This document shows positions 14,033-39,318 of a stretch of 64,000 nucleotides of DNA, one piece after another. The position numbers and the translations under genes are program-made. Each line of letters opens with the position of its first letter. Position 1 is the stretch's first letter. Origin of the DNA: Alistipes sp. (lineage in GTDB: Bacteria > Bacteroidota > Bacteroidia > Bacteroidales > Rikenellaceae); the NCBI GenBank assembly GCA_017555105.1, contig JAFZHB010000004.1, positions 1 through 64,000 of the forward strand. The letters run 5' to 3'. The notes under the pieces were generated by a model. That model made no database searches. It worked only from the letters and a program-made list of their open reading frames with translations, and had not been told where the DNA came from.

Positions 14033-14112
14033 TGTTTTTGGGTGTTCTAGGTTTTTCTAGGTTTTTCTGGGTTTACTTGGGTTTTTCTGGGTTTACTTGG
14101 GTTGATTTAGGA
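14033..14112. repeat. 10-bp period array, family A copy 1
   Basis: Six to seven near-tandem 10-bp units of the form CTAGGTTTTT / CTGGGTTTAC / TTGGGTTTTT follow one another without phase change. It sits between the tRNA-Asp terminator and the GH28 terminator, so both neighbours already have their own terminators. Unlike the other four copies it runs in one orientation only. Confidence 0.85.
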
Positions 14113-14122
14113 GGGGGATATC

Positions 14123-14155
14123 AAAAAAACCGCCCACCAAATCTTGGCAGGCGGT
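14123..14155 (-). terminator. Terminator of the GH28 gene
   Basis: On the minus strand ACCGCC (14155-14150) pairs with GGCGGT (14134-14129), with an inner CCAA/TTGG stem, then a T run at 14128-14123. Confidence 0.85.
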
Positions 14156-14176
14156 GATAGTCTATCGGGTTCTACC

Positions 14177-15472
14177 CTACTTCAGCACTACATTCTTCCA
14201 CTTGAAGCGATCGATCTGCGAGCGGTCGCACTCCTGCTGCTCGGCCGTGATCTCCAAGTTCTCGAACAGGAAGTCCGAGAGTTGATATTGGTCGTCGGCG
14301 CGCTTCACATTGAAGAAGGTCTTGCAGTCGACTTTGATGTTGCGCATCGTGATGTGGCGACCGTACGACAAGGGCATATCTTTGCGTCCTTTCAGGTCGA
14401 AAAACTGCGTCCAGGGGCGCACATAGAGGAACGAACCGATATTTCCCTCGATCTCCTCTACGGTGATGTATTCGTAGTTTTGCGGGGTGTCGGGGCGCAT
14501 CTTGAGCCACAGCAGACGCGTAGCCTGATCCACGCGGATGCGGCGCAGGATGATGTTGCGGTTATGGATCGACTCCGAGCCGCAAGTCAGGCAGCTGTGG
14601 CAGAAGCCGAAGGTGCAATCCTCGATGATGATGCGCTCGTTCGAGCCGTTGTTGGGATCTTGGTCGGCCCAGGGGCCCTTGCCGCCCTTCAGGGCGATGG
14701 CGTCGTCGTTGACCGAGAGGTAGCAGTTTTTCACCAGCACATCGCGGCAGACATCCAGGTCGATGGCATCCGAGCTGGGAGCCTTCACCGGTGCTGCCGG
14801 GGCAAAGAGGCGCACGCCCAGGATGCGGAGGCGATTCACATTGTAGTAGTGGCTCGTCCAAAAGGGCGAGTTTTGCAGCGTCACGCCCTCGATCTGCACA
14901 TCGCGCGAGTTGGAGATGTAGAGCAGACGCGGACGCATCTCGTCCATATTCGTGCATTTGGGATTGACCTTGCGACGCAGCCAGAAGGAGCGCCAGTAGC
15001 GCAATCCGTTGCCGTCGATCGTGCCCTTACCCGTGATGGTGAAGTGGGCTACATTGTCGGCATTGACCAGCGCAGCGAAGTAGTTGAGCGTCTGCCCCTC
15101 GATGCGGGTCTTGACGATCTCGAAGTCGGCGATGTCGTCGCTGCCCTTCAACACAGCACCCTCCTCCAGGTGCAGGTGCGTGCCCTGCTTGAAGAAGAGC
15201 GAGCCGCTCAGAAAGACACCCTTCGGGATCACCACCACACCACCCTGCTCGGCGGCACGGTCGATGACCGCTTGCAGGGCAGCCGTCTGCAGCAGCGTGC
15301 TATCCTGCTGCACTCCATACTCCGTCACCACAAAGCGCTCGCCCAGCGTCGTGAGATCGATCGGTTGTGCCTCGTAGAACCACGAGCCGATCTTCGTGCC
15401 ATCGGGGAAGCGCTCCCCGGCCTGCGTGCTGCCACAGATCAGGAGCAGCACAGCGATCAAAAATCGTTTCAT
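14177..15472 (-). CDS. Glycoside hydrolase family 28 (polygalacturonase-type)
   Basis: GH28 enzymes hydrolyse galacturonic-acid linkages in pectin or rhamnogalacturonan. The 431-residue protein starts with a signal peptide (MKRFLIAVLLLICGSTQAG), so it is exported to the periplasm or beyond. It has right-handed beta-helix repeats and the GH28 acids in SSDAIDLD and NDDAIALKGG, followed by FCHSCLTCGSE, where His is in the expected place. The last segment is unusual in having two Cys, and the usual RIK triad reads LLWLKMR. Substrate is therefore uncertain. It lies next to the rhamnose operon but has its own promoter, operator-like repeat and terminator. The start at 15472 was chosen for the signal peptide; an ATG 27 bp upstream is also open. 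Confidence 0.88.
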   Translation of the reverse strand: MKRFLIAVLLLICGSTQAGERFPDGTKIGSWFYEAQPIDLTTLGERFVVTEYGVQQDSTLLQTAALQAVIDRAAEQGGVVVIPKGVFLSGSLFFKQGTHLHLEEGAVLKGSDDIADFEIVKTRIEGQTLNYFAALVNADNVAHFTITGKGTIDGNGLRYWRSFWLRRKVNPKCTNMDEMRPRLLYISNSRDVQIEGVTLQNSPFWTSHYYNVNRLRILGVRLFAPAAPVKAPSSDAIDLDVCRDVLVKNCYLSVNDDAIALKGGKGPWADQDPNNGSNERIIIEDCTFGFCHSCLTCGSESIHNRNIILRRIRVDQATRLLWLKMRPDTPQNYEYITVEEIEGNIGSFLYVRPWTQFFDLKGRKDMPLSYGRHITMRNIKVDCKTFFNVKRADDQYQLSDFLFENLEITAEQQECDRSQIDRFKWKNVVLK

Positions 15473-15485
15473 TTGCAATGCTATC

Positions 15486-15525
15486 GGTTGTTTCAACAAA
15501 TATACATAAAAAGGTTGAAACGACC
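15486..15525 (-). promoter_or_regulatory. GH28 promoter with flanking 12-bp inverted repeat (operator candidate)
   Basis: GGTTGTTTCAAC (15486-15497) and GTTGAAACGACC (15514-15525) form an inverted repeat matching at 11 of 12 positions across a 16-bp gap. The minus-strand -7 element TATATTTG (15504-15497) lies within the gap, and no strong -33 is visible. A dimeric regulator bound here would directly control the GH28 promoter. Confidence 0.7.
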
Positions 15526-15540
15526 TCTATCCTTGCCCAC

Positions 15541-15576
15541 AAAAAAAGAGCCTGCCCCTCGTGGAGGCAAGCCCTT
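15541..15576 (-). terminator. Terminator of the rhamnose operon
   Basis: On the minus strand GCTTGCC (15571-15565) pairs with GGCAGGC (15556-15550) with one wobble, and a T run follows to 15541. It lies 23 bp after the rhaD stop. Confidence 0.8.
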
Positions 15577-15598
15577 TCGTTTGGCTTCGCAGTGCGAT

Positions 15599-16405
15599 TT
15601 AGAGGTTGAAGGCGCGCTGCAACTCGTCCATCTGCTCCTGCGTCGTACCCGTAGGCTCGTAGCCCATCGACTTGGCAGCGATGTAGATCTGCGTAGCCTT
15701 CGAGAGTACATCGACCTGGTCGAAGGCCTCCATGATGTCGGGACCTACGGCGCATACACCGTGCTTCTCCCACATCACCACATCGTACTCCTTCAGCGAC
15801 TCGATCGTGGCATCAGCCAGCTCTACCGACGAGGGCATCTTGTAGGGAACGATACCCAGACCCTTCGGGCAGAAGGCGCGCGTCTCGGGGATCATGCTCC
15901 ACAGCAGGTTCGTCAGCACATCCTTCTTCAGGAACTCGGGGTTGTGCGTCAGCGCCACGAGGTCGATCGGGTGCGTGTGCAGAGCAGCCTTGTAGCCCTT
16001 GCCGTTCTCGATCATCTGGTTGTGCATCGAGAGGTGGGCTGCCAGCTCCGAGGTGGGCTTCACGGCCTGATCGGCGATGATCACATACGAAGCGCAATCC
16101 TCCTGGATGCGGATGATCGAGCCATTCTCCATCGGCCAGCGAGCCAGGTCGCGCATGCGGCGGTTCGTGCCCTTGCAGTAGAAGTAGCAACCCTTGAGCG
16201 ACGGCAGCGTCGTGCCAATCGGATATACGGGCGAGATAGCCGGCATCTGACGGATCTCGTCGTCCACATACTCCGTGACATTGATCGTGATGTTGCCACC
16301 ATTACGCTCTGCCCAGCCCTTCTGCCAGAGATAACCGGCCACTTCGGCCACCTTGTAGATCTCGGCTTTCAGCGCGGGACGATTTTCCAAAATAGATTTT
16401 ACCAT
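15599..16405 (-). CDS. rhaD: Rhamnulose-1-phosphate aldolase
   Basis: This zinc aldolase splits L-rhamnulose 1-phosphate into dihydroxyacetone phosphate and L-lactaldehyde. The 268-residue class II aldolase/adducin-fold protein has the metal-binding HTHPIDLVAL near residue 147 and downstream MWEKHGVCAVG, the third His. Length matches E. coli RhaD. It is the last gene of the operon, 27 bp after rhaT. Confidence 0.93.
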   Translation of the reverse strand: MVKSILENRPALKAEIYKVAEVAGYLWQKGWAERNGGNITINVTEYVDDEIRQMPAISPVYPIGTTLPSLKGCYFYCKGTNRRMRDLARWPMENGSIIRIQEDCASYVIIADQAVKPTSELAAHLSMHNQMIENGKGYKAALHTHPIDLVALTHNPEFLKKDVLTNLLWSMIPETRAFCPKGLGIVPYKMPSSVELADATIESLKEYDVVMWEKHGVCAVGPDIMEAFDQVDVLSKATQIYIAAKSMGYEPTGTTQEQMDELQRAFNL

Positions 16406-16432
16406 AACTGTTTGCTTTTCTCTGTTGTTAGT

Positions 16433-17467
16433 TTATTTCAGCAATTCGGGAATGAAGGTCGAGGCGATCAGCACCAGGATGCCCGCTACGAGCACCGCGA
16501 TCGTCTTCTTCGAGCAGCCCTTCCACTCCTTGAGCAGGATGCCCCACACATTCGAGAAGGTCACATTGAGTGCCATCAGGATGCAGAAGGCGAAGGTCGT
16601 CAGTGCAGGCGACTCGGTCAGGAAGCCCTTGCCCAGGCTCAGACCGAAGAACTGCGAGTACCACAGACCACCGGCCAGGGCGCAGAAGAGGATGTTGTTT
16701 ACCCACAACGAACGCTTGCCGTAGTCGCTCCAGCTCTTATTCTTGGCGTTCTGCCAAAGGCAGTAGACCGCATTCGTGCAGAAACCACCCAGCGTCACGA
16801 ACATCGTGCCGGGAAGCGATTTGAACATATCACCCGTCTCGGCGAAGTGGAGCGAACCACCAAACTCCAAACCCATGTTGAAGCAGGCGCTCATGAAACC
16901 GGCCAGGAGGGCGATAGCCAGACCCTTCGGGAAGTTGAAGTCCTTCACAGCCTTCTGCTTCTCCTCCTCCGAGAGCGATGCGGCCTTCATGCCACCCGCT
17001 ACGCCGATGATGGCGATGCCCAGGAGCGTTACAGCCACACCAATGAGCACGGCGGCCGTAAGCTTCTCCAGATGCCCCGCCTCGGGATAGAACAGGTGAA
17101 GCATCACGGGCCCCATGATCGTACCCAGACCGGCACAGGTGCCGAGCGAGATCGACTGACCGAGTGCGACGCCCAGGTAGCGCATCGAGAGACCGAAGGT
17201 CAGACCTCCGACACCCCACAGCACGCCAAAAAGGATCGTCATCCAGATCTTGAAGGCGTTATCCGCCGTGATCAACTCGCCCAGCGAGTGGCCTGCCGGC
17301 ACAGCCAGCAGGGCACCCAGCACGGGGAATACGAGCCACGCAAAGACTCCTTGCGTCAGCCAGAAGCTCTCCCACGACCACTCGCGTACCTTCTTAATGG
17401 GTACATACGAGCTCGACTGGCAGAAGCTGCCGACTGCGATGATCAATAAACCGATCAATACTTCCAT
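16433..17467 (-). CDS. rhaT: L-rhamnose/proton symporter
   Basis: RhaT imports L-rhamnose with protons across the inner membrane. The 344-residue protein shows about ten hydrophobic segments, and the N-terminal SSYVPIKKVREWSWESFWL and SLGTCAGLGTIMGP match the RhaT family. It lies between fucO (11 bp upstream) and rhaD. Uptake by a dedicated symporter and not by a SusCD pair implies that this operon handles the free monosaccharide. Confidence 0.93.
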   Translation of the reverse strand: MEVLIGLLIIAVGSFCQSSSYVPIKKVREWSWESFWLTQGVFAWLVFPVLGALLAVPAGHSLGELITADNAFKIWMTILFGVLWGVGGLTFGLSMRYLGVALGQSISLGTCAGLGTIMGPVMLHLFYPEAGHLEKLTAAVLIGVAVTLLGIAIIGVAGGMKAASLSEEEKQKAVKDFNFPKGLAIALLAGFMSACFNMGLEFGGSLHFAETGDMFKSLPGTMFVTLGGFCTNAVYCLWQNAKNKSWSDYGKRSLWVNNILFCALAGGLWYSQFFGLSLGKGFLTESPALTTFAFCILMALNVTFSNVWGILLKEWKGCSKKTIAVLVAGILVLIASTFIPELLK

Positions 17468-17478
17468 CGGTCGCGGTT

Positions 17479-18633
17479 TTAGTAGGCGATGTTGTAGATG
17501 GCCTCAATCTCCTCTACCGAGGTCGGACGCGGGTTACCACCCGTGCAGACATCGTTGAAGGCGGCTACGGCCAGATCGTGCAGATCCTCCTTCTTTACGC
17601 CGATCTCCGACAGACGCTGCGGGATGTTGATGCTGATCGAGAGAGCCTTCACGGCGTCGATAGCAGCCTTTACACCCTCGTCAACCGACATGCCCTCCGT
17701 GTTTACACCCATAGCCTTGGCGATGCCGAGGTACTTCGGGCGAGCCGGCGAGTCGGCGTTGTACTCCATTACATAGGGCAGGAGCAACGCGTTGGCTACA
17801 CCGTGCGGCGTGTCGTAGAAGGCGCCCAGCGGGTGAGCCATCGAGTGTACGATACCCAGACCTACATTCGAGAAGCCCATACCGGCAATGTACTGCGCCT
17901 CGGCCATACCCTCGCGGGCAACTACATCCTGACCATTCTGCACAGCGTTGTAGAGGTGCTCGTGGATCAACTCGATGGCCTTCGCCTCGAACATATCGCT
18001 CATGGTCCAAGCACCCGGCGTGATGTAGCTCTCGATGGCGTGCGTCAGGGCGTCCATACCCGTAGCAGCGGTCAGACCCTTCGGCATCGACATCATCAGC
18101 TCGCAGTCGATCACCGCGCACATCGGAATGTCGTTCGGGTCAACGCATACCATCTTCTTCTTGTTCTCCTCGTCGGTGATCACATAGTTGATCGTCACCT
18201 CGGCAGCCGTACCGGCCGTCGTCGGGAGTGCGAAGGTGGGAACGGCGCGGTTCTTCGTGGGGGCTACACCCTCCAGCGAGCGCACATCCTTATACTCGGG
18301 GTTCGTGTGGATGATACCCACAGCCTTAGCCGTGTCGATCGACGAACCACCACCCAGGGCTACGATGCAGTCGGCACCCGAAGCCTGGAAGGCTGCCAGT
18401 GCGTCGAGCACATTCTTGATCGTCGGGTTGGGCTTGATGTCCGAGAAGATCTCGTAGGGAATCTCAGCGCCCTTGAACACCTCTTCCACCTTGGCTGCTA
18501 CGCCAAACTTAACGAGGTCGTTATCCGTGATCAGCATCACCTTCTTATAGCCGCGCTTCTTGATCTCGTCGGCAATCACCGAGCGGCAACCTGCTCCGAA
18601 GTAGGAGGTCTCATTCAATACAATACGATGCAT
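17479..18633 (-). CDS. fucO: Lactaldehyde reductase (iron-containing alcohol dehydrogenase)
   Basis: FucO reduces L-lactaldehyde, the RhaD product, to L-1,2-propanediol with NADH under anaerobic conditions. The 384-residue group III alcohol dehydrogenase has GGGSSIDTAKAVG near residue 96 for NAD and metal ligands in MDALTHAIESY and HSMAHPLGAFYDTPHG. The position between rhaA and rhaT supports the lactaldehyde role over other Fe-ADH substrates. No propanediol dehydratase is seen nearby, so propanediol is probably excreted. Confidence 0.9.
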   Translation of the reverse strand: MHRIVLNETSYFGAGCRSVIADEIKKRGYKKVMLITDNDLVKFGVAAKVEEVFKGAEIPYEIFSDIKPNPTIKNVLDALAAFQASGADCIVALGGGSSIDTAKAVGIIHTNPEYKDVRSLEGVAPTKNRAVPTFALPTTAGTAAEVTINYVITDEENKKKMVCVDPNDIPMCAVIDCELMMSMPKGLTAATGMDALTHAIESYITPGAWTMSDMFEAKAIELIHEHLYNAVQNGQDVVAREGMAEAQYIAGMGFSNVGLGIVHSMAHPLGAFYDTPHGVANALLLPYVMEYNADSPARPKYLGIAKAMGVNTEGMSVDEGVKAAIDAVKALSISINIPQRLSEIGVKKEDLHDLAVAAFNDVCTGGNPRPTSVEEIEAIYNIAY

Positions 18634-18689
18634 AGTGTTGTTCGTTTGTTAAGTTTTAAGGATCTTGTTTTCTTTGGTTTTCGTGTGGT

Positions 18690-19943: not shown

Positions 19944-19980
19944 AGTTGTTTTAGTTTATTTTGGTTGTTAGATTTTTTGC

Positions 19981-21405: not shown

Positions 21406-21492
21406 ACGCGTTTTCAGGTTCTGTTATCGGTTTTCGTTGATGGTTATTTTCGTTGCTTGCAAAGGGGGTTCGTGAGTCCACACTTTGCCTAA

Positions 21493-22838: not shown

Positions 22839-25298
22839 ATGACGATTCAATTCCGTATCACCTACCGCACCGCCTTTGGAGAGAACCTCTTCCTGGTGGT
22901 CGAGGGTGCTCGAAGCAACGCCCATCCGATGCACTACATCGGGGAGGATCGCTGGAGCTGTTCGATCAAATCGACGGCCGCACAGCTGACCTACCACTAT
23001 GAGGTGCGTTGTGGCGAGGAGACGCTCCGCCGCGAGTATGGAGCATCCCACAGCTTGACGATCGATGCAAAGAGCAAGTCGCTGCGCATCTTCGATGCCT
23101 GGCACTCGCTGCCGCACGACCGTTCGTTCCGTTCGACGATGTTCACCGAGGGCGTCTTTGCCCGTGCGCGTGCCAAGAAGGTGCTCACGGCAGCAGCCGA
23201 CGAGGTGCTGATCCGTGCCGAGATCCCCATGGTACGCTCCACGCAGCGCGTGGTGCTGGTGGGCGATCAGAAGGTGCTCGGTGGGTGGAATCCCGCCGAG
23301 GGTGTGGCGATGAACGATGCCGAGTTCCCGCTCTGGGCCGCTTCGATCAAGGCCTCGCGCCTCAAGGGTGCTTTCTCCTTTAAGTTTGTCATCGTAGATG
23401 CTGCCTCGGGTGAGGCGGTGGCCTGGGAGCAGGGCGAGAACCACTACTTCGGCGAGGCGCTCGAGGCGGGTGGCTCGGTGGTGGTCGACTCGCTGCGTCC
23501 GCAGTTTGCGCAGGCCGCTTGGCGCGGTGCCGGTGTGGCCATTCCGGTCTTTGCCCTCCGCTCGGAGGAGAGCTTCGGTGTGGGTGAGTTCCACGACCTG
23601 AAAAAGATGGTCGATTGGGCTGCTTTGACCGGTCAGTCGATCATCCAGATCCTTCCGGTGAACGACACCACGATGACGGGCACCTGGCAGGACTCCTACC
23701 CCTACAACGCCAACTCGACCTTTGCCCTCCACCCGCAGTACCTCCACCTGCCCGATGTCGGCACGCTGAAGGATAAGGAGCAGGCGGCGCGTTTCGAGCA
23801 GTTGGGGCGTGAGCTCAACACGCTCGCCGAGATCGACTACGAACTGGTGAACAACACCAAGAACGAGTACCTCCGCGCGATCTACGCCCAGGAGGGTAAG
23901 AAAACCCTCGCCTCGAAGGCCTTCAAGGAGTTTATGTCGAAGAACGAGCACTGGCTGCGTCCCTACGCGATCTTCTGCGCCCTGCGCGACCAGCATCACA
24001 CGCCCGACTTCACGCAGTGGGGCAAGATGGCCAAGTACACCACGGCGAAGGCCGCCAAGTATGAGTCGGAGCACGCCGAGGCGGTGGCCTACCACCACTT
24101 TGTGCAGTACCACCTCGACCGTCAGCTGCGTGCCGTACGCGACTATGCACACGCCCACGGCGTGGTACTGAAGGGTGACATCCCGATCGGTATCAGTCGC
24201 ACGAGCGTCGATGCCTGGGTCTATCCCGAGCTCTTCAACATGGATTCGTCGGCGGGTGCGCCGCCCGATGACTTCTCGGTAATGGGTCAGAACTGGGGCT
24301 TCCCGACCTACAACTGGGCGAAGATGGCTGAGGATGGCTACGCCTGGTGGAAGGCTCGCTTCGTGAAGATGGCCGAGTACTTCGACGCCTACCGCATCGA
24401 CCACATCCTGGGCTTCTTCCGCATCTGGGAGATTCCGCTCACGGCCGTGAACGCCCTCCTGGGTCGCTTCAACCCGGCACTCCCCTTCTCGGTGGAGGAG
24501 ATCGAGCAGTATGGCTTCTGGTTCAACAAGGATTGGCACACGGCGCCCATCGAGGCGACGGACAATGTGCTCTTCGTGGAGGATAAGCTCCAGAAGGGCC
24601 ACTACCACCCCCGCATCTCGGCCCACTCGACCGAGTGCTACCGCAACCTGATGGAGGATCAGAAGGAGGCCTACAACCGCCTCTACAACGACTTCTTCTA
24701 CTACCGCCACAACGACTTCTGGTACCACGAGGCGATGCGCAAGCTCCCCGTGCTGATCGAGGCTACGGGTATGCTGGTGTGTGGTGAGGACCTCGGTATG
24801 ATCCCCCACTGCGTGCCCGCGGTGATGAGCGGTGAGCAGATCCTCTCGCTCGAGATCCAGCGTATGCCGAAGGATCCGAAGGTGGAGTTTGCCGCTACGG
24901 AGATCTACCCCTACCTCTCGGTTTGCACCACCTCGACCCACGATATGAACCCCGTGCGTGCTTGGTGGGAGGAGGATCGTGCCGTCTCGCAGCGCTTCTA
25001 CAACCATGTGTTGGGCGCGTGGGGCGAGGCACCCTACTACTGCGAGCCGTGGATCTGTGAGCTGGTGGTGGCCAAGCACCTCGAGTCGCCCGCCATGCTG
25101 ACCATTTTGCCGTGGCAGGATTGGGTGGCGATGGACGGTGAGTTGCGTCGCGAGAACCCCAACGAGGAGCGCATCAATGTGCCGGCGAACTCACGCCACT
25201 ACTGGCGCTATCGTATGCACATCACGCTCGAAGAGCTGCTCAAAGCCGAGAAGCTCAATCTGATGATCCGTAAGAAGATCAAGGAGAGCGGAAGATAG
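22839..25298 (+). CDS. malQ: 4-alpha-glucanotransferase, DPE2-like with starch-binding domains
   Basis: This GH77 enzyme transfers alpha-1,4-glucan segments and handles maltose and maltodextrins in the cytoplasm. Of 819 residues, roughly the first 240 hold two CBM20-like domains (FRITYRTAFGENLFLVV; then RAEIPMVRSTQRVVLVGDQ with LGGWNP). The GH77 barrel follows, with YRIDHILGFFRIWE, VCGEDLGMIP and TSTHDMNPVRAWW. No signal peptide is seen. The layout is that of plant DPE2 and its Bacteroidetes relatives, unlike the roughly 500-residue MalQ without such domains. The start at 22839 fits the promoter. The stop codon overlaps the start of a 10-bp-period array. No other maltose genes adjoin it. Confidence 0.94.
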   Translation: MTIQFRITYRTAFGENLFLVVEGARSNAHPMHYIGEDRWSCSIKSTAAQLTYHYEVRCGEETLRREYGASHSLTIDAKSKSLRIFDAWHSLPHDRSFRSTMFTEGVFARARAKKVLTAAADEVLIRAEIPMVRSTQRVVLVGDQKVLGGWNPAEGVAMNDAEFPLWAASIKASRLKGAFSFKFVIVDAASGEAVAWEQGENHYFGEALEAGGSVVVDSLRPQFAQAAWRGAGVAIPVFALRSEESFGVGEFHDLKKMVDWAALTGQSIIQILPVNDTTMTGTWQDSYPYNANSTFALHPQYLHLPDVGTLKDKEQAARFEQLGRELNTLAEIDYELVNNTKNEYLRAIYAQEGKKTLASKAFKEFMSKNEHWLRPYAIFCALRDQHHTPDFTQWGKMAKYTTAKAAKYESEHAEAVAYHHFVQYHLDRQLRAVRDYAHAHGVVLKGDIPIGISRTSVDAWVYPELFNMDSSAGAPPDDFSVMGQNWGFPTYNWAKMAEDGYAWWKARFVKMAEYFDAYRIDHILGFFRIWEIPLTAVNALLGRFNPALPFSVEEIEQYGFWFNKDWHTAPIEATDNVLFVEDKLQKGHYHPRISAHSTECYRNLMEDQKEAYNRLYNDFFYYRHNDFWYHEAMRKLPVLIEATGMLVCGEDLGMIPHCVPAVMSGEQILSLEIQRMPKDPKVEFAATEIYPYLSVCTTSTHDMNPVRAWWEEDRAVSQRFYNHVLGAWGEAPYYCEPWICELVVAKHLESPAMLTILPWQDWVAMDGELRRENPNEERINVPANSRHYWRYRMHITLEELLKAEKLNLMIRKKIKESGR

Positions 25299-25370
25299 GT
25301 TGTAATAGGTTTAATGAGGTTTCTTAAGTCTACCTAGAAAAACCTAAATAAACCCAGAAAAACCCAGAAG
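25297..25370. repeat. 10-bp period palindromic array, family A copy 2
   Basis: Seven 10-bp units keep strict phase: the left ones end in AGGTT or AGGTTT, the right ones are their inverse (GAAAAACCTA, AATAAACCCA, GAAAAACCCA), with the centre at CTTAAG. The malQ stop codon overlaps the first unit. A separate bidirectional terminator follows, so the array itself need not be the terminator. Confidence 0.85.
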
Positions 25371-25373
25371 ACG

Positions 25374-25412
25374 AAAAAAAGAGCCTGACGATTAGTCAGG
25401 CTCTTTTTTTTT
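25374..25412. terminator. Bidirectional terminator, malQ / MFS gene
   Basis: GAGCCTGAC (25381-25389) and GTCAGGCTC (25395-25403) form a perfect 9-bp stem with GATTA loop, flanked by seven A on the left and nine T on the right. The MFS stop codon overlaps its right edge. Confidence 0.92.
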
Positions 25413-26660: not shown

Positions 26661-26747
26661 CGATTAAAGGCCATTAAGGGCAATTAAAGGAACAGAAAAC
26701 CAAGTTGCCCCTAATTGCCCTTAATCTCCCTTATTAGCCCTTATAAG
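26661..26747. repeat. 10-bp period palindromic array, family B copy 1
   Basis: Left units ATTAAAGGCC, ATTAAGGGCA, ATTAAAGGAA are mirrored by right units AATTGCCCTT, AATCTCCCTT, ATTAGCCCTT across a short centre, all in one unbroken 10-bp phase. It fills the space between the O-methyltransferase stop and the MFS promoter region. No other terminator is seen here. Confidence 0.85.
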
Positions 26748-28626: not shown

Positions 28627-28730
28627 GCTGGGGTTTTCTGGGTTTATTTAGGTTTTTCTAGGTTTATTTAGGTAGACTTAAGAGACCTAATTAAACCTAC
28701 TCAAACCTAGTCAAACTTAGAAAAATCTAA
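28627..28730. repeat. 10-bp period palindromic array, family A copy 3
   Basis: About ten 10-bp units run without phase break: CTGGGTTTAT, TTAGGTTTTT, CTAGGTTTAT, TTAGGTAGAC on the left and TAATTAAACC, TACTCAAACC, TAGTCAAACT, TAGAAAAATC on the right, mirrored about CTTAAG. Its left half is the reverse complement of copy 2 apart from one extra 10-bp unit. It lies between uvrA and the M16 gene. Confidence 0.88.
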
Positions 28731-28746
28731 TTTTGAATTTTGCATT

Positions 28747-31524
28747 CTAAATTTTGCATTTGAGAAACGCTCCTGTGTGGCTTTTCGCCTTCGCCAGCTC
28801 CTCGGGTGTGCCTTCAAAGACCACCTCACCGCCCTGCGAGCCTGCTTCGGGTCCCAGGTCGATGACCCAGTCGGCGCACTTGATGATCTCCATGTTGTGC
28901 TCCACGATCACCACCGTGTGTCCCTGCGCCAGGAGCGCATGGAAGGCTGCCAGCAGGCGTTTGATGTCGTGGAAGTGGAGTCCCGTGGTCGGCTCGTCGA
29001 AGACGAAGAGCACCTGTCCGCGCTCATCCTCCTTCGTGAGGAACGAGGCGAGCTTCACGCGCTGGCTCTCACCGCCCGAGAGGGTCGAGGAGCTCTGCCC
29101 GAGCTTCACATACCCCAAGCCTACATCCTGCAACGGACGCAGACGATTCACGATGCGGCGGCAGGTGGTCGACTTATCCTCGCCGAAGAACTCGATCGCC
29201 TCATCGACATTCATCTCCAGCACATCGTGGATCGACTTGCCGCGGTAGCGGATCTCCAGCACCTCGTCGCGGAAGCGCTTGCCGCCACACGCCTCGCAGA
29301 CCAGCTCCACATCGGCCATGAACTGCATCGAGACCTTGATCACGCCCTCGCCCTGACACTCCTCGCAGCGTCCTCCCGCCACATTGAACGAGAAGGAGGA
29401 GGCCGTGAGTCCCGTGTGCTTGGCCTGCGGCTGCTCGGCAAAGAGCTGACGGATCTCGTCGTAGGCCTTCAGGTAGGTCACGGGGTTCGAGCGGGTCGAT
29501 TTACCGATCGGGTTCTGGTCGACCATCTCCACCGAGCGCAACAGTGAGTAGTCCCCCTTCACGCCGTCGAAGTCGCCCGGCTTGTCGCCCGACTCACTCA
29601 CCAGGCGGCGCAGTGCGGGATAGATGATCCCCTTGGCGAGCGACGACTTACCCGAGCCACTCACGCCCGTGATGCAGGTCATCACCCCCAGCGGGATGCG
29701 TACATCGATGTTGCGCAGGTTGTTCTCTCGGCAACCCTCGAAGAGGATCGAGCGATTCCACCCACGCACCGACGCGGGCAGGGCGATCTCCTTGCGCCCC
29801 AAGAGGTAGTCGGCCGTGAGGCTTCGGGTGCAGTTTTTGAGCTCCTCGGGTGTGCCGCTGAAGACCACCTCACCGCCGTGGATGCCCGCCTCGGGCCCGA
29901 TGTCGATCAGGTAGTCGGCTGCACGGATCACCTCCTCCTCGTGCTCGACGACGATCACCGTATTGCCCAGGTCGCGCAGCTGCTTGAGGACCTTCACCAG
30001 GCGGTGCGTGTCGCGCGGATGGAGTCCGATCGAGGGCTCGTCGAGGATGTAGAGCGACCCCGTGAGGTTGCTTCCGAGCGAGGTCGAGAGGTTGATGCGC
30101 TGGCTCTCACCACCCGAAAGCGTGGCCGAGAGTCGGTCGAGGGTCAGGTAGCCCAACCCTACATCCGAGAGGTACTGCAGGCGGTTGCGGATCTCGGTGA
30201 GGATGCGCTCGGCAATGGTGCGGTCGTGCTCATCGAGCTCCAGCCCCCCGAAGAAGGCGATCAGCTGATCCACCGGCATGGCCACCAGCTCGGCGATGTT
30301 CTTGCCACCCACACGGACATAGAGCGCCTCCTTGCGCAGGCGTCCTCCCCCACACTCGGGACAGGTCGTCTTGCCCGTGTAGCGAGCCTTCATCACGCGG
30401 AATTGGATCTTGTAACGCTCCTTGTCGATGTAGCGGAAGAAGTCGTCCAAGCCATAGAAGTATTCGTTGCCCCGCCAGAGGAGGAGCTTCTGCTCCTGCG
30501 TCAGTTCGTGGTAGGGCGTGTGAATCGGGAAGTTGAACAGGTGGGCGTGCTGCACGAGTGCCTCCTTCCAGCGGCGCATCGTCTCGCCACGCCAGCAGGC
30601 CACCGCATCGTCGTAGATCGTGCGGCTCTTGTCGGGGATCACCAACTCCTCGTCGATGCCCGTCACCTTGCCGTAGCCCTCACAGCGGGGGCAGGCACCA
30701 ATCGGGTTGTTGAAGCTGAAGAGGTGCTCGGTCGGCTGCTCAAACTCCAAGCCGTCGGCCTCGAAGCGCGAAGAGAAGGATCGCGGCTCATTCGAGCCGA
30801 TGATCACCGTGCAGTGTCCCTCGCCAAACGAGTAGGCGCGACCAATCGAGTCGCGCAGGCGCGTGGCGCACTCCTCGTCGCTCGTGATGCGCAGGCGATC
30901 GACCACCATCCCCACCTCCTCGGTGCGGGTGTGCTCGGTCATCGTTGGCAGGAACTCCTCGATCAGCACCGCCTGACCCTCCGTGTAGAGGCGTGTGATG
31001 CCGTCGGCCATCAGCTGCATCAAGCGCTCGATGAAGCCCTCCTCCCCCCGCAGGCGAATCGGAGCTGTGATCACGCAGCGCTCCTCGGCGTGCTGCTGCA
31101 CCCAGGCGGCCACCTCATCCACGCTGTCGCACCGCACCTCACACCCCGAGATGGGCGAGAAGGTGTGTCCCACGCGGGCAAAGAGCAGCTGCAGGTAGTC
31201 GTAGATCTCGGTCGAAGTGCCCACCGTCGAACGGGGGTTGCGCGTGTTGACCTTCTGCTCGATGGCAATGGCAGGCGCAATGCCCGAGATGATGTCCACA
31301 TCGGGCTTTGAGATCTTGCCCAGGAACTGACGCGCATAGGCCGAGAGGCTCTCCACATAGCGGCGTTGTCCCTCAGCAAAGATCGTATCGAAGGCCAGGG
31401 TCGATTTGCCCGAACCCGACAGACCCGTCACCACAACGAGCTTGTTGTGTGGGATCTCGACCTCGATGTTGCGCAGGTTGTGTACCCGTGCTCCCTTGAT
31501 ATAGATTGCTCCTTCGTGTGCCAT
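28747..31524 (-). CDS. uvrA: UvrABC system protein A
   Basis: UvrA is the damage-recognition ATPase of nucleotide excision repair. The 925-residue protein has two ABC ATPase halves, Walker [10 protein letters not shown] near residue 34 and GVSGSGKSS near residue 620, each with an LSGGESQR signature, and zinc-finger cysteine pairs ([30 protein letters not shown]). Length is normal. It lies 4 bp after yigZ as the last gene of the dapB-lepB-yigZ-uvrA run. A short duplicated stretch of TGCAAAATT-like sequence spans its stop codon. Confidence 0.97.
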
Positions 31525-32128: not shown

Positions 32129-32139
32129 CCTGCTTCCTC

Positions 32140-33495: not shown

Positions 33496-33515
33496 AACGG
33501 TGTGTTTGCTTTGTG

Positions 33516-34274
33516 TTATTGCAGCAGGTCGTCCATCGTGTAGATGCCCTCCTTGCCACAGAGGAACTCAGCCGCCACAACAGCACCCATGGCCAGCGTG
33601 CGGCGGTTCTTGATCGTGTGCTTGAGCTCGAGGGCGTCGTCCACGCTCTCGTAGCGTACGGTGTGGATACCCGGGGTCATCCCCTCGCGCACCGAACGGA
33701 TCACCAGATCCTCCTCGCCCACCGTGCGGGGCGCACGCTCCGTGTAGTCGGCCACATCGAAGATCGGAGCGAAGTTGATCCACTGCTGCTTCTGCGAGAG
33801 ATGCTCGATGATCCCCTCGGCCAGCGTGATGGCCGTGCCGCTCGGAGCATCCTTCTTCTGGGTGTGGTGCACCTCCTCGATCTCCACCTCATAGTGTGCC
33901 CCCGAACGCTCCACGAGCTCGGCCAGACGACGCGAGATGCGGAACAGCAGGTTGACACCCAACGAGTAGTTCGAGGCGTAGAAGAGTGCGCCGTGCTGCT
34001 CCTGGCAGTAGGCCTTCAACTCCTCGTAGCGTGCCAGCCAGCCGGTCGTGCCGCTCACCACAGGCACGCCGCAGGCGATGCAGCGACGCAGGTTGTCGTA
34101 GGCCGTCGCAGGCGTCGTAAATTCGAGCGCCACATCCACCCCTTTCAGGTGCTCGGCGTCGAGTTCGTGGGTGTTCTCCAGGTCGATAATGAGGGCCACC
34201 TCGTGGCCACGCTCGCGCAGGATCTGCTCGATCTCGCGCCCCATCTTTCCATATCCGATAATAGCAGTCTTCAT
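33516..34274 (-). CDS. dapB: 4-hydroxy-tetrahydrodipicolinate reductase
   Basis: DapB makes tetrahydrodipicolinate for lysine and meso-diaminopimelate synthesis. The 252-residue protein has the Rossmann start [20 protein letters not shown], and the substrate-binding [14 protein letters not shown]. It is the first gene of the dapB-lepB-yigZ-uvrA run and has a strong promoter just upstream. An ATG two codons earlier (34280) is also possible. Confidence 0.95.
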
Positions 34275-34292
34275 ACGCATTGATTGATCCTA

Positions 34293-34324
34293 CAAAGGTA
34301 ATAAAACTCAGTCGATTCGCCAAA
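34293..34324 (-). promoter_or_regulatory. dapB operon promoter
   Basis: TACCTTTG (34300-34293) and TTTG (34324-34321) on the minus strand have a 20-bp spacer. Transcription should begin only about 12 nt before the dapB start. Confidence 0.75.
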
Positions 34325-34382
34325 TTTTCTCCTCCGTGGGTAAAAACATCCCGACTAAGAACGGCGAATCGAAAAATAATCG

Positions 34383-34390
34383 TATCTTTG
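34383..34390 (+). promoter_or_regulatory. truA promoter -7 element
   Basis: TATCTTTG lies 27 bp before the truA ATG. The -33 half is not clear. It supports the start at 34418 over an upstream in-frame extension that would cross this element and the dapB promoter. Confidence 0.55.
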
Positions 34391-34417
34391 TGTGAGAAAA
34401 AAGGGAGAGAAACGACG

Positions 34418-35182
34418 ATGCGCTACTTCATCGAATTGCGATACAACGGAGCCGCCTACTGCGGTTGGCAGCGCCAACAGGGGCAACCCTCGGTGCAGCA
34501 GACCCTCGAGCAGGCGCTCTCGACCTACCTCCGCCGCCCGATCGAGGTGGTGGGTGCCGGTCGCACCGATACGGGAGTGCACGCCGCCTACTATGTGGCA
34601 CACTTCGACCTCGAGGAGACGATCTCCGACCTCCAGCAGACGGTTTACAAGGTCAACCGCATCCTACCCGACGACCTGGTGGTCGACACGCTGACACCCG
34701 TGGATGCAGAGGCCCACGCCCGCTTCGACGCCGTGGAGCGTGCCTACTGCTACTACATCGAGCCGCGCAAGAACCCCTTCACGCGAGCCACCACCTGGCA
34801 ATACGCTGTGGCGCTCGACCTCGAGGCGATGAACCGTGCCGCCGAGCTGCTCCTCACCGAGCGCGATTTTACGACCTTTGCCAAGCTCAATTCGAACAAT
34901 AAGACGAACATCTGCCGCGTGGTGCATGCCCGCTGGGAGAAGGATGAGCACGGCGTGCTCTGCTTCACGATCCGTGCCGATCGCTTCTTGCGCAACATGG
35001 TGCGAGCCATCGTCGGTACGCTGGTCGATGTGGGACGCGGACGCTACACCGTGGAGCAGTTTGCCGAGATCCTCCGCAGCCGCGACCTCTCGCGCTCCAG
35101 CAGCGGTGCTCCTGCCCAGGGACTCTTTCTGAGCGATGTGCGCTACCGTCCCGAGTGCTTTGAACGAAAAACCTATTACTAA
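34418..35182 (+). CDS. truA: tRNA pseudouridine(38-40) synthase
   Basis: TruA makes pseudouridine at positions 38-40 of tRNA anticodon arms. The 254-residue protein has the N-terminal RYNGAAYCGWQRQ, the catalytic GAGRTDTGVHA with Asp near residue 52, and RFLRNMVRAIVGTLVDVGRG near residue 200. Length is normal. A small membrane-protein gene follows 18 bp later. Confidence 0.95.
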   Translation: MRYFIELRYNGAAYCGWQRQQGQPSVQQTLEQALSTYLRRPIEVVGAGRTDTGVHAAYYVAHFDLEETISDLQQTVYKVNRILPDDLVVDTLTPVDAEAHARFDAVERAYCYYIEPRKNPFTRATTWQYAVALDLEAMNRAAELLLTERDFTTFAKLNSNNKTNICRVVHARWEKDEHGVLCFTIRADRFLRNMVRAIVGTLVDVGRGRYTVEQFAEILRSRDLSRSSSGAPAQGLFLSDVRYRPECFERKTYY

Positions 35183-35200
35183 CAATTAAACTTTACAACT

Positions 35201-35389
35201 ATGATTTTGTGGATTATCTGCCTGGTGATTCAGGTGATTCTCGCCCTCGAAGTGTGGCGTCGCAACGACCTCGACATGGTGGCCAAGCTGATCATGATTT
35301 TGGTGATCGTACTCGTACCCTATATGCTGGGTGCTGCGTTCTACTACTTCTACGCCAAAGACAAAGTAGCCGGATGGTTCAAAAAATAA
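35201..35389 (+). CDS. Small membrane protein of unknown function
   Basis: The 62-residue protein has two hydrophobic helices (about residues 1-17 and 29-49) around the charged turn EVWRRNDLDMVAK. The second helix ends in aromatic residues AAFYYFYAKDK. It loosely resembles the two-helix PLDc_N segment before phospholipase D-type enzymes, but stands alone here. Co-transcription with truA is likely from the 18-bp gap and the shared terminator. No function can be assigned. Confidence 0.7.
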   Translation: MILWIICLVIQVILALEVWRRNDLDMVAKLIMILVIVLVPYMLGAAFYYFYAKDKVAGWFKK

Positions 35390-35406
35390 CCACCCCGCTG
35401 CTTGAA

Positions 35407-35450
35407 AAGAAAAACCTGCTTAACCCTTCGGTTAGGCAGGTTTTCTTCTC
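35407..35450. terminator. Bidirectional terminator, truA unit / lpdA
   Basis: CCTGCTTAACC (35415-35425) pairs with GGTTAGGCAGG (35430-35440) around a CTTC loop with a near-perfect 11-bp stem, flanked by A-rich and T-rich runs. The junction is convergent. Confidence 0.9.
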
Positions 35451-35465
35451 TTTGTTGTTCGTTGG

Positions 35466-36839
35466 TTACAGGTGTATGGCGCACCCCAGGGCGTTCTCTG
35501 CCGCCTCCATCATCGCCTCGTTCATCGAGGGATGAGCATGGATCGTGCGGGCAAGCTGATGTGCCGTTGCCCCCAAAGCCTTGGCCAGCGTAGGCTCTGC
35601 CAGCAACTCAGTCACCGAGCCACCCACCAGGTGTGCTCCAATCAGGCGCTCCTCCTCGTCGAAGATCAGCTTCACGAAGCCGTCACGCTCGCCTGCAGCC
35701 GTCGCCTTGCCCGATGCCGTGAAGGGGAAGCGTCCCACCTTGATCGTGATCCCCTGCTCCACTGCCTGCTGCTCGGTCAGACCCACCGAAGCCACTTCGG
35801 GCGAGGTGAAGATGCACGATGGAATGGTCGTGTAGTCAATGGGTGCAGGATTCAGGCCGCAGATCGCCTCCACACAACAGATCGCTTCGGCCGAGGCTAC
35901 ATGAGCCAATGCAGGGCCCTTGACGATGTCGCCAATGGCATAGACCCCCTCGACATTTGTGCGGTAGAACTGATCCACCACCACCTTGCCGCGCTCGGTC
36001 TCCACGCCCAGCTCCTCCAGACCGATCCCCTCGGTGTTGGGTACAATACCCACTGCCGAGAGCACCACATCGGCCGTCAGCAGCTCCGTGCCCTTCTTGC
36101 CTTCGATCTCGACCTCGCACTGCTCGCCCACCACGCGGGCACCCTTGACCGCTGTGCCGGTCATCACCGTCACGCGCAGCTTGCGAAAGGCGCGCTCCAT
36201 GGCCTTCGACACCTCCTCATCTTCGAGGGGCATCAGGCGCGGCAGGTACTCCACGAGGGTCACCTTCACGCCTAGCGCTGCATAGAACCACGCTAGCTCA
36301 CTGCCGATGGCTCCCGAACCGACGACGATCATCGTCTCGGGCAGCTTCTCCAAAAGCAATGCCTCCTTCGAGGAGAGGATCCGCTCGCCGTCGATTGGCA
36401 TGCAGGGCATCTGACGCGGACGCGCACCCGTAGCCAGGATGATGTGGTCGGCCTCATACACCTCCCCCGCCACATCGAGCGTGTGGGGAGCTGTCAGGCG
36501 ACCGTGACCCTGAATCAGGTCGATGGCATTCTTCTTCAGCAAAAACTGAATACCCTTCGACATGGTCTCCGCCACCGTGCGCGAGCGCTTGACAATGGCC
36601 GCGAGGTCGGCTTTCACCTCCCCCTCGACCGTAAGGCCATACTGCGCCGCCTCCTTGCAGTGGCGATAGACCGAAGCACTCTTCAGGAGCGCCTTGGTCG
36701 GGATGCAGCCCCAATTCAGGCAGACACCACCCACCTCGGCACGCTCCACGAGCGCCACCTTCTTGCCCAGCTGTGCGGCGCGAATGGCAGCCACATAGCC
36801 GCCCGGGCCGCTGCCGACGACGATCAGATCGTAACGCAT
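35466..36839 (-). CDS. lpdA: Dihydrolipoyl dehydrogenase
   Basis: This flavoprotein reoxidises dihydrolipoamide in 2-oxoacid dehydrogenase or glycine-cleavage complexes. The 457-residue protein has FAD-binding VVGSGPGGYVAAI, redox disulfide GGVCLNWGCIPTKAL near residue 40, the NAD-binding VVGSGAIGSELAWF near residue 173, and the C-terminal His-Glu pair in HAHPSMNEAMMEA. No E1, E2 or glycine-cleavage genes adjoin it, so the partner complex is unknown. Its start overlaps the stop of the C69 peptidase by 1 bp (TAATG), which couples two functionally unrelated genes. Confidence 0.94.
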   Translation of the reverse strand: MRYDLIVVGSGPGGYVAAIRAAQLGKKVALVERAEVGGVCLNWGCIPTKALLKSASVYRHCKEAAQYGLTVEGEVKADLAAIVKRSRTVAETMSKGIQFLLKKNAIDLIQGHGRLTAPHTLDVAGEVYEADHIILATGARPRQMPCMPIDGERILSSKEALLLEKLPETMIVVGSGAIGSELAWFYAALGVKVTLVEYLPRLMPLEDEEVSKAMERAFRKLRVTVMTGTAVKGARVVGEQCEVEIEGKKGTELLTADVVLSAVGIVPNTEGIGLEELGVETERGKVVVDQFYRTNVEGVYAIGDIVKGPALAHVASAEAICCVEAICGLNPAPIDYTTIPSCIFTSPEVASVGLTEQQAVEQGITIKVGRFPFTASGKATAAGERDGFVKLIFDEEERLIGAHLVGGSVTELLAEPTLAKALGATAHQLARTIHAHPSMNEAMMEAAENALGCAIHL

Positions 36840-38461
36840 TACTCTACTACCTTCAAGATCTCACCCTTGTCCTGTGCCACGGCACGCTTCCACATCTCCG
36901 TGTAGCCCGGCTGCTCGATCTTGCCCGGGATATTCACGCCGTTGCCGTTGTCGATGAAGCCGTTGGCGTCCTCACCCTTCACGTTGCCGTCGATGTACTT
37001 CACCATCAGATACTTATCCAGCGAAGCCCACTTCGTGAAGAGCTCCTGTGCCGTCTCCACGCTGAAGGTCGTGGCGATCTTCTTCATCTTCTTCTCGCTG
37101 TAGTCGACATTGCCCATCAGGATGTCGATCTTCTTCACCTTCTCGATCATGGCATTCTCCCACTGATCGATCTCCGAGCGGATGTGCTTACCGACGATGT
37201 TGTAGCGCAGGTAGGCAAATTGGGCGATGCGGTTCGTGATCCAGAACATCGAGCTGTCCGAATACTCGAGCATCGATCCGTTACCCTCCTTCAAACACTC
37301 GGGAACCTCCTGCGAGGTGACATAGATGGGCGTCAGAGGCGATGTGGCGGCATCATCCGTGCCGAACCACAGGATGCCCACCTTCTCGGGACGAGCCTGT
37401 CCTACAAGCCAGAAACCGGTCTGCTGCGTAGCGATCGCACGCTCGTTGCAGTACTCTACGCCATCTACCTTCCAATACATCGGACGCCAACGGTAGGGGC
37501 AAGCCTCGCCACCGGCACCAATATCGGTCGTCATATCCATCTTCGTACCCTCATAGTGGTCGCGCATGCAGTCCATCACCACCTTCGGCGTGAGCTTCGT
37601 GTGGGGCTTCACCCACAGCGGCATGCGGTTCTCTTTGTTGTGACCCAGGGCATAGTCCTCATACTGATCCATATCGTCGGCAATCGTGCGGAAGAAGGCC
37701 CATACACGCGCCTCGCAACCACGCATCGCACCGAAATCGAGCGGAGCGTAAGCATCAGCAAAACTGAAATCCTTGTTCTCGCCCTCGAACCAACCGAACT
37801 TGCGGGCTACATCCGCTACATCGGGAGCGTAGAGGCAGTTCTCGGGATCATCCCACGGGAAGGTGGTGATGCGAGCCTGGTTGGCGTGTGCCGAGACATA
37901 ACCGTCGGGAATGCGACGAGCCACCCAAACGATACCCTTATCCTCGGGACCCTTGCCGATGAGCTCCATGATCCAAGCCTCCTCCTGGTCGATGAGCGAG
38001 AAGCTCTCGCCCGACGAGGCGTAGCCGTAGGTGTTGGCCAGATCAACGATCGTCGCGATCGCCTCACGAGCCGTCTTTGCGCGTTGCAGCGTGATGTAGA
38101 TCAGCGAGCCGTAGTCGATGCCGCCCTTCGGATCGTCCAACTCGTGACGGCCGCCAAAGGTGGTCTCGGTGATGAAGAGCGAGTGCTCGTTCGAGTTACC
38201 CAGCGTGCGGTAGGTGGTCGGAACCTGGGCAATCGGCCCCAGCAGACGACCCGTATCCCACTCGCGTACCTGCATCGTGGGGGTATATTTGCCAGGAACA
38301 TGCTGATAGAGCACACCGTAAAGCGCGTGCGAGTCGGCAGCGTAGGTCACCATGTTCGACCCGTCGGCCGAAGCCCCACGCGTGATGATAAAGTTTGTGC
38401 AGGCCGAAACGGTCGTGTAAGCCGCCAGCGCCAGCACGGTGAGTAAAAAGGTTTTCTTCAT
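36839..38461 (-). CDS. C69 family dipeptidase
   Basis: C69 enzymes are N-terminal-nucleophile dipeptidases. The 540-residue protein has a signal sequence ending at about Ala20, which would expose Cys21 (in SACTNFIITRGAS) as the mature N-terminal nucleophile. Further family stretches include SLIDQEEAWIMELIGKGP and VSAHANQARITTFP. The enzyme should be periplasmic and act on short peptides, a preferred carbon source of asaccharolytic Bacteroidales. It is co-transcribed with lpdA from a clear promoter. Confidence 0.92.
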   Translation of the reverse strand: MKKTFLLTVLALAAYTTVSACTNFIITRGASADGSNMVTYAADSHALYGVLYQHVPGKYTPTMQVREWDTGRLLGPIAQVPTTYRTLGNSNEHSLFITETTFGGRHELDDPKGGIDYGSLIYITLQRAKTAREAIATIVDLANTYGYASSGESFSLIDQEEAWIMELIGKGPEDKGIVWVARRIPDGYVSAHANQARITTFPWDDPENCLYAPDVADVARKFGWFEGENKDFSFADAYAPLDFGAMRGCEARVWAFFRTIADDMDQYEDYALGHNKENRMPLWVKPHTKLTPKVVMDCMRDHYEGTKMDMTTDIGAGGEACPYRWRPMYWKVDGVEYCNERAIATQQTGFWLVGQARPEKVGILWFGTDDAATSPLTPIYVTSQEVPECLKEGNGSMLEYSDSSMFWITNRIAQFAYLRYNIVGKHIRSEIDQWENAMIEKVKKIDILMGNVDYSEKKMKKIATTFSVETAQELFTKWASLDKYLMVKYIDGNVKGEDANGFIDNGNGVNIPGKIEQPGYTEMWKRAVAQDKGEILKVVE

Positions 38462-38486
38462 AGTTCTTGTAATATTGATTGAGAGT

Positions 38487-38518
38487 CAAATGTACGAAAC
38501 AAATCCGAAATGAGCAAC
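38487..38518 (-). promoter_or_regulatory. Promoter of the C69 peptidase-lpdA unit
   Basis: TACATTTG (38494-38487) and GTTG (38518-38515) on the minus strand have a 20-bp spacer. Divergent from the yggS promoter 20 bp away. Confidence 0.7.
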
Positions 38519-38535
38519 AATCGCAAAATTTTTGT

Positions 38536-38543
38536 TACTTTTG
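38536..38543 (+). promoter_or_regulatory. yggS-family gene promoter -7 element
   Basis: TACTTTTG lies 22 bp before the start codon. No convincing -33 element is seen. Confidence 0.5.
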
Positions 38544-38565
38544 AGGGCACAAAAAGACCCGTAGT

Positions 38566-39231
38566 ATGTCAATAGCAAGCCAATTGGAACGCGTGAGAGC
38601 CACCCTCCCCGAGGGGGTAAAGCTGGTGGCCGTCTCGAAGACCCACCCTACGGAGGTGATCGAGGAAGCTTACCGTGCCGGACAGCGCTGTTTCGGCGAG
38701 AGTCGTCCCCAGGAGATGAAACAGAAGCAGGAGGCGCTGCCGAAGGATATCGCCTGGCACATGATCGGCCACCTGCAGACAAACAAGATTAAATACATCG
38801 CCCCCTTTGTCGCGCTCATCGAGTCGGTCGACAGCGAGCGTCTCTGCGAGGCGTTGCAGCGCGAGGCGGTCAAATGCCACCGCGTGCTCGACCTGCTCTT
38901 CGAGGTTCATGTGGCACGCGAGGAGACCAAGAGCGGTTGGGTTGCCGCCGAGCTGATCGCCTTTGTCGAGGCGGGAGCGATGGATCGTTACCCGAACTTG
39001 CGTGTGCGAGGGGTGATGGGTATCGCCTCCAATACGGAGGACGAGGCGGTCGTGAAGGGTGATTTTGAGGCGCTGCGTGCTGTTTTTGAGGTGCTCAAGC
39101 CCCACTTTGGAGAGGCGTTTGATACGCTCTCGATGGGCATGTCCGACGACTACCCGCTGGCCATCGCCTGCGGATCGACCTCTGTGAGGGTCGGATCGCT
39201 GATCTTCGGCGAACGAGATTACAGCAAATAG
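38566..39231 (+). CDS. YggS family PLP-binding protein
   Basis: This is a pyridoxal-phosphate homeostasis protein without known catalytic activity in the family. The 221-residue protein has KLVAVSKTHP near residue 20 with the PLP lysine, FGESRPQE, WHMIGHLQTNK near residue 66, and the phosphate-binding SMGMSDDYPLAIACGSTSVRVG near the C-terminus. Length is typical. It stands alone; its stop codon directly abuts a family B array. Confidence 0.93.
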   Translation: MSIASQLERVRATLPEGVKLVAVSKTHPTEVIEEAYRAGQRCFGESRPQEMKQKQEALPKDIAWHMIGHLQTNKIKYIAPFVALIESVDSERLCEALQREAVKCHRVLDLLFEVHVAREETKSGWVAAELIAFVEAGAMDRYPNLRVRGVMGIASNTEDEAVVKGDFEALRAVFEVLKPHFGEAFDTLSMGMSDDYPLAIACGSTSVRVGSLIFGERDYSK

Positions 39232-39318
39232 AAAAGGCTATTAAGGGAAACAAAGGGCGACTAAGGAGTAAAACCTTAATCGCCCTTAATTGCTTTTAAT
39301 GGCCCTCATTAGCCCCTC
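39232..39318. repeat. 10-bp period palindromic array, family B copy 2
   Basis: Left units (ATTAAGGGAA, ACAAAGGGCG, ACTAAGGAGT) are mirrored by right units (TCGCCCTTAA, TTGCTTTTAA, TGGCCCTCAT) around TAAAACC, in strict 10-bp phase. It fills the whole convergent junction between the yggS-family and M23 genes, and no separate terminator is present, so here it may stop transcription from both sides. Confidence 0.85.

Follow-up and report, generated by a model that had tools for sequence, protein, structure and literature searches.

Oriented 10-bp Repeat Arrays in the Gene Spacers of Alistipes and Related Bacteroidales

Five gene spacers within the window, a stretch of 64,000 nucleotides of Alistipes sp. 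DNA, hold arrays of near-tandem 10-bp units, and the question arises what such arrays do. The preliminary description offered DNA curvature, RNA hairpins, protein-binding arrays and a REP-like mobile element as possible roles. The arrays were compared with their counterparts in the rest of the genome and in related genomes. Among the roles offered, protein-binding arrays provide the best fit, the binding itself being proposed from the geometry of the sites.

The arrays of the window and their copies elsewhere

The positions, form and neighbours of the arrays are presented in Table 1. The identity at a lag of 10 bp (0.74, 0.66, 0.65, 0.68 and 0.53 for arrays 1-5) was matched by none of 1000 dinucleotide shuffles in each case. 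All five arrays lie between genes, as had been stated, with arrays 1, 2 and 5 in convergent contexts (a tRNA being located on one side of array 1) and arrays 3 and 4 between tandem genes. The excess of inverted repeats was equalled by none of 300 shuffles at each of the five spots and is least at array 1; the description of four of the five as palindromes is borne out by the two arms of arrays 2-5. The unit consists of a 7-bp core and a 3-bp linker. The two unit families described earlier were recovered as A (about YTAGGTTNNN) and B (about YTAARGGNNN), and calling their sequences unrelated was too strong, since both contain YTAR and a GG and have identical facing. Inspection by eye shows a T-run hairpin at the array 2 junction in array-less relatives as well. 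The 7-bp-type repeats abutting array 4 extend into the final codons of the uvrA-like gene, and none were seen by eye at the corresponding place in relatives.

Table 1. Repeat arrays of the window and features adjoining them
Feature	Positions	Strand	Type	Surroundings and remarks
Array 1	14033..14112	+	family A, one-armed	periodic stretch extends 14017-14116; tRNA-Asp terminator on one side, terminator of opposing GH28-like gene on the other
Open frame	14144-17449	+	1101 aa, probably spurious	opposite GH28-like and next genes
Array 2	25297..25370	.	family A, two-armed inward	GH77 stop, then array, then terminator; convergent with MFS gene
Terminator-like hairpin	25374..25412	.		adjoins array 2 (from sequence)
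Array 3	26661..26747	.	family B, two-armed inward	3' of O-methyltransferase gene, 5' of MFS gene (tandem)
Array 4	28627..28730	.	family A, two-armed inward	3' of uvrA-like gene, 5' of M16 peptidase gene (tandem)
7-bp-type repeats	28731..28760	.	TTTTGAA/TTTTGCA	abut array 4, by eye
Array 5	39232..39318	.	family B, two-armed inward	convergent pair, alanine racemase-like and M23/LysM genes

Further copies, on which the preliminary description had staked its case, are present in the same genome (22 contigs totalling 1.77 Mb; completeness 86%). Family A gave 15 pattern matches and family B 26, with no match of the reversed control for either. Grouped by position, the matches form 18 sites, 6 of A and 12 of B. 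In 405 kb of this genome, the commonest lag in noncoding DNA is 10 bp (with its double, 20), and 7 bp is second.

Within the genus, the B pattern, allowing up to one mismatch, was found in 11 of 61 genomes, own genome included (reversed control, 2 matches in 1 genome), and that of A in 4, again including the own genome (reversed control, one match each in 2 genomes). A three-unit pattern with one mismatch gave 342 matches in G046, 216 in G074, 157 in G077 and 8 in G000, while G002 and G004 gave none; in all 15 genomes the reversed control was zero. These matches overlap, and the counts of arrays are lower: G046 has 34 in 400 kb and G074 has 9 in 213 kb. Three genomes are taken to carry two labels each (G037 = G082, G039 = G074 and G036 = G084). 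Many relatives are without such an array; the arrays are therefore dispensable, which counts against the binding-protein reading.

An exact match was found in 2 of 247 genomes of an order-wide sample, the own genome being one of the two. Among the matches listed in a scan of named genomes, most belong to 'Alistipes sp.' and Rikenellaceae MAGs from herbivore guts, and others to some other Bacteroidales and to scattered unrelated species; several of the listed matches in unrelated species resemble plain tandem repeats. In Gardnerella vaginalis (L103) and Saprospiraceae (L111), both unrelated bacteria, a similar 10-bp unit makes up long tandem arrays with a single arm, which are probably independent. 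A phage origin was considered and rejected: seven viral contigs match a four-unit pattern and are by eye mostly plain tandem repeats. The window arrays and four array-rich loci drew no match from Rfam, and among the open-access PubMed Central papers listed none describes these arrays in its title or the start of its abstract.

Spacing, facing and pairing of the arms

In 400 kb of G046, the core-to-core distances of 4-16 bp comprise 132 of 10 bp, 4 of 11 bp and one each of 8, 9 and 13 bp, and the two-armed clusters of the same sequence have the order left-then-right in 15 of 15 cases. Among 166 arrays from six pools 62 are two-armed, and 60 of these face inward (AAGG> <CCTT), one faces outward and one is mixed. 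An overlapping set gave 51 inward, 1 outward and 1 mixed, with 0 of 123 arrays in genes; L112, its outward case, is taken to be two elements side by side. Since either facing would be open to an inverted repeat, the 60 inward cases of 62 count in favour of sites read by a protein in double-stranded DNA.

The exact 10-bp period reported for the window is the rule for this core and not for every array of the genus. Arrays of similar look with a period of 9 bp exist in G046, G004 and other genomes, and with a period of 11 bp in G004. In the latter (L256, L258, L260), 11-bp arrays like CTACTCTTTTG and 9-bp arrays like TTAGGGAG replace the 10-bp core, and one 9-bp array is by eye inward-facing. The period may be species-specific. 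Tandem 7-bp arrays (AATTAAG-like and others) outnumber 10-bp arrays in the spacers of G046 (L226-L235), G003 (L216-L225), G039 (L266-L270), G059 (L261-L265) and G069 (L271-L275), and do not outnumber them in the own genome, G001 and G004. At times they abut 10-bp arrays.

It had also been claimed that the phase is kept through the centre. This is supported for G046 and G074, in which exactly 10 bp separate the innermost cores of the two arms in 8 of 23 and 3 of 13 arrays, respectively, counting from the last left to the first right core. The centre phase modulo 10 is non-uniform (p = 1.7e-6) for 38 arrays from three of the six groups, namely G046, G074 and the own genome, which contributes the two arrays that passed the filter. 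By inspection, the nine arrays of G003 are evenly distributed, six of the nine JAFULF arrays share one residue, and the mixed group (22 arrays) has a slight peak only. A motif-free test of phase heterogeneity gave p = 8e-5 over 16 pooled arrays and p = 0.91 for its four window arrays. The centre is longer in G003 (43-52 bp) and JAFULF (57-89 bp). Selection on the architecture, as argued in the preliminary description, gains support, short of proof, from the uniform facing, the spacing and the centre phase in two relatives.

Inward arms might also form an RNA hairpin in 3' UTRs, serving as a terminator, mRNA stabiliser or processing site. The five window arrays fold with z from -2.3 to -5.0, and the location of arrays in gene spacers described below, few in divergent and many in convergent gaps, would suit such a role. 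However, a good fold on paper is expected of any inverted arrays, and compensatory pairing between the arms was not found: over 51 arrays, the linkers match in 158/450 (shuffled, 0.36) and the variable core positions in 158/300 (shuffled, 0.54), so that covariation does not exceed chance. The inter-arm linker test was significant in none of seven groups. Of 500 shuffles each, the observed match was reached by 53 for the own genome, 116 for G046, 338 for G074, 39 for G003, 456 for JAFULF, 309 for other Rikenellaceae and 417 for JAFROL/DBXB; the own arrays, with a weak match of 29/45, and those of G003 lean toward matching, both non-significantly. In tandem gaps, 67 of 105 arrays have a single arm only, and these show no strand preference (30 sense and 37 antisense, p = 0.46). 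The absence of register match and of sense-strand bias argues against an RNA stem and suggests that the motif is read in double-stranded DNA. In addition, separate terminator-like hairpins exist at several arrays, the Rfam search mentioned above was negative, and hairpins do not need an inward orientation. We consider the RNA hairpin very improbable.

The correction of palindromes by template switching was also rejected on the lack of register match between arms. Telomerase-like templated addition with fusion of ends, which would yield inward arms with no register match, was rejected, as RVT_1 was not found in the array-rich genomes G046, G074, G075, G077, G078 and G079; among 24 genomes grouped by the analyst, 5 of the 11 array-rich and 3 of the 13 array-poor genomes have RVT_1. 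Position 5 of the core in G046 is A in 63%. A G-quadruplex was considered only, and it is disfavoured by the presence of GG rather than GGG in many units.

The predicted curvature, calculated from a set of wedge values, is 82, 62 and 85 degrees for the arrays of family A compared with null means of 36-44, while the values for family B, 26 and 30 degrees, fall below null means of 38. A bend is thus predicted for one family and not for every member. Curvature cannot be the common role of the arrays.

Location between genes and turnover among relatives

None of the 166 arrays, pooled from several genomes, is located inside a called gene. They occupy 47 convergent, 105 tandem and 14 divergent gaps, while the array-free gaps of 60-1000 bp comprise 80, 300 and 113, respectively (n = 493). 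Divergent gaps are under-used (14/166 vs 113/493, p = 2e-5) and convergent gaps enriched (47/166 vs 80/493, p = 9e-4), relative to a baseline pool that excludes G074 and other Bacteroidales present in the array pool; in a matched comparison the deficit in divergent gaps is weaker (7/64 arrays vs 113/493, p = 0.034). The preference for gene ends suggests a possible role as a boundary or in supercoiling. It is important to note that the avoidance of promoters is equally expected of a harmless insert. The stop codon was rejected as a seed of the arrays, the distance from the upstream stop to the first core being flat modulo 10 (47 arrays).

The comparison of syntenic junctions, proposed in the preliminary description, revealed presence and absence of arrays. 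For the window it covered arrays 2 and 4; at array 3, none of 14 loci tried in relatives extended across the array. Array 4 is absent at the M16-uvrA junction in 11 of 11 relatives, where the gap is 11-73 bp compared with 133 bp here. The GH77-MFS gap, which contains array 2, is array-free in G036, G124 and G032, and in G046 it contains an array of other units on the opposite side of a terminator-like hairpin. Sixteen arrays of G046 have a syntenic place in G074, where the array is shared for 5, present without being alignable for 3 and absent by rule for 8. Of these 8, one retains a degenerate remnant by eye, and for the three matched to segments of 865-1379 bp the verdict is loose. In G084, 1 of the G046 arrays is shared and 8 of 9 are absent, and in G073, 5 of 5 are absent; the arrays left out for want of synteny number 30 (G074), 37 (G084) and 41 (G073). 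In the opposite direction, 6 arrays of G074 are shared with G046 and 2 are absent (12 without synteny), while 3 of 3 are absent in G084 (17 without synteny). At L232:6268-6404 in G046, 7-bp and 10-bp repeats have seemingly taken the place of the final codons of the gene upstream, as compared with G084 and G073.

In eight shared arrays, de-duplicated by hand, differences were found in 33/399 of core and 34/171 of linker positions (p = 1.8e-4; 52/602 and 53/258 in the raw table, in which some arrays are counted twice), a conservation of the core that is partly built in, as arrays were found by core, and likeness of the core was part of the rule by which they were called shared. Identity extends to 80/80 unit positions, core and linker, in two shared arrays, whose flanking anchors are 79-94% identical. 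Selection on the core alone does not predict such identity in the linkers too. The array at L332:13342-13428 (G046) and L366:5753-5839 (G074), with 80/80 unit positions the same and anchors of 90% and 82%, is missing in G084.

Gain and loss of this kind might be due to a mobile element. MITEs are short, inverted and dispersed, with presence and absence between relatives, and the arrays resemble them in all these respects. The arms of a MITE-like non-autonomous element would be inverted tandem transposase sites, inserted between genes by a transposase acting in trans. Inverted sets of sites suit transposon ends, and the absence of array 4 from all 11 relatives, the 8 of 16 syntenic G046 arrays with none in G074 and the similar copies, roughly 150-200 bp long, that are dispersed in G003 and JAFULF all speak for such an element. 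However, the G046 arrays are mostly not mutual copies or copies of a master: 18 of 1223 arm pairs have at least two consecutive identical units, although the shuffled expectation is about 4. One possible CTTA target duplication was seen by eye, at L232:3582, and no other, the remaining array junctions not being alignable base by base. The Y1/RAYT transposase, the one family searched for, was found in 0 of 61 genomes, and no autonomous copy came to light incidentally. Unlike MITEs, the arrays have yielded neither a firm target duplication nor a partner transposase. We regard the MITE-like origin as rather unlikely. The dispersed copies in G003 (L067, L077, L089, L136, L150, L164) and JAFULF (L105, L112, L116, L144, L145, L153) are about 150-200 bp long, with a long centre and arms bracketed by GCGCAA boxes, and look like a composite repeat family.

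The arrays might also have arisen neutrally, as by-products of replication slippage in spacers combined with local repair, given a bias in sequence towards this unit. Other short-period arrays (7, 9 and 11 bp) occur in the same spacers, and by eye units are locally homogenised or replaced in shared arrays. Adjacent linkers in G046 are identical in 30 of 132 cases, a likeness within arms of 0.23 compared with 0.065 at random and with no decay over distance. Young arrays should, however, have near-identical linkers, and 102 of 132 differ. Slippage also leaves unexplained the inward facing and the recurrence of the same core at unrelated sites, and template-switch correction between arms predicts register-matched arms, which are not seen. 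We hold the neutral origin to be quite unlikely. It should be noted that the arrays could have a binding function even if they arose by mobility or by slippage.

A putative binding protein and comparison with known systems

The facing of the cores, their spacing, the centre phase, the lack of strand bias and the lack of matching between arms are together best matched by a putative DNA-binding protein that would pack in 10-bp steps, coming from both sides where an array has two arms. We propose that the tandem 7-bp sites (YTAARGG in B and YTAGGTT in A), repeated every 10 bp, form a double-stranded DNA element in which successive sites would be presented on nearly one helical face. The two halves of a two-armed array aim at a common centre. 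A putative protein would bind the sites side by side and cooperatively, and the oriented complex would arise close to the ends of genes and only rarely at divergent promoters. Such a complex could serve as a boundary for transcription or supercoiling, or as a chromosome-organising site. That the arrays are double-stranded DNA sites packed cooperatively by such a protein, and are tolerated or selected near gene 3' ends, is our preferred reading, held tentatively and with somewhat less than even confidence. A fuller version is unlikely to hold in all its parts: lineage-restricted, helically phased and oriented sites on which the protein would assemble from both sides toward the centre into boundary complexes between genes, with anything from a few motif runs to hundreds in a genome and a turnover so rapid as to make sister species unlike each other at many junctions.

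Iteron and transposon-end arrays likewise present repeated, oriented sites in helical phase to a single protein; their units are about 20 bp long and are confined to an origin or to the ends of an element. The arrays described here may be compared with these and differ in their 10-bp units and many chromosomal locations.

Another similar system is the TAACTGA heptamer, whose direct repeats, according to the published account (MacGregor 2015, PMC4679880), are 7-bp units, mostly forward, just 5' of start codons, with 169 direct sets and one indirect repeat, in scattered taxa including five Bacteroidetes, and with stops in all three frames. Both are short tandem motifs, mostly intergenic and in many sets per genome, with the binder unnamed in both, and TAA every 10 bp likewise gives stops in three frames here. 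The arrays differ in their 10-bp units, variable linkers, inward pairs and bias to gene ends, so that neither the unit nor the location is that of the TAACTGA repeats.

The REP-like identity suggested in the preliminary description can be compared with REP sequences as described in one report (PMC3733652), namely 20-40 bp elements with a GTAG or CGTC tag, the GTAG/CGTC families having RAYT transposases. By this description the arrays are, like REP and BIME palindromes, dispersed, extragenic and palindromic; they are mostly longer, consist of 10-bp tandem units, and on inspection no constant GTAG/CGTC tag was seen. The Y1 (PF01797) RAYT transposase was found in none of the 61 genus genomes, some of them incomplete, at E <= 0.001, while 5 of 14 control genomes were positive. 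The arrays are not tagged palindromes of 20-40 bp, and membership in the REP/RAYT group was rejected, although arrays have clearly been gained or lost at syntenic sites.

The orientation rule, the exact spacing and the centre phase lead to a clean prediction of one binder with a fixed geometry. If the arrays are mobile instead, they would represent an element bounded at each end by tandem 10-bp sites and acted on by an enzyme still to be assigned. If the protein is found, the arrays would constitute a system of DNA architecture or gene boundaries in these Bacteroidales, with natural variants of presence and absence at syntenic junctions.
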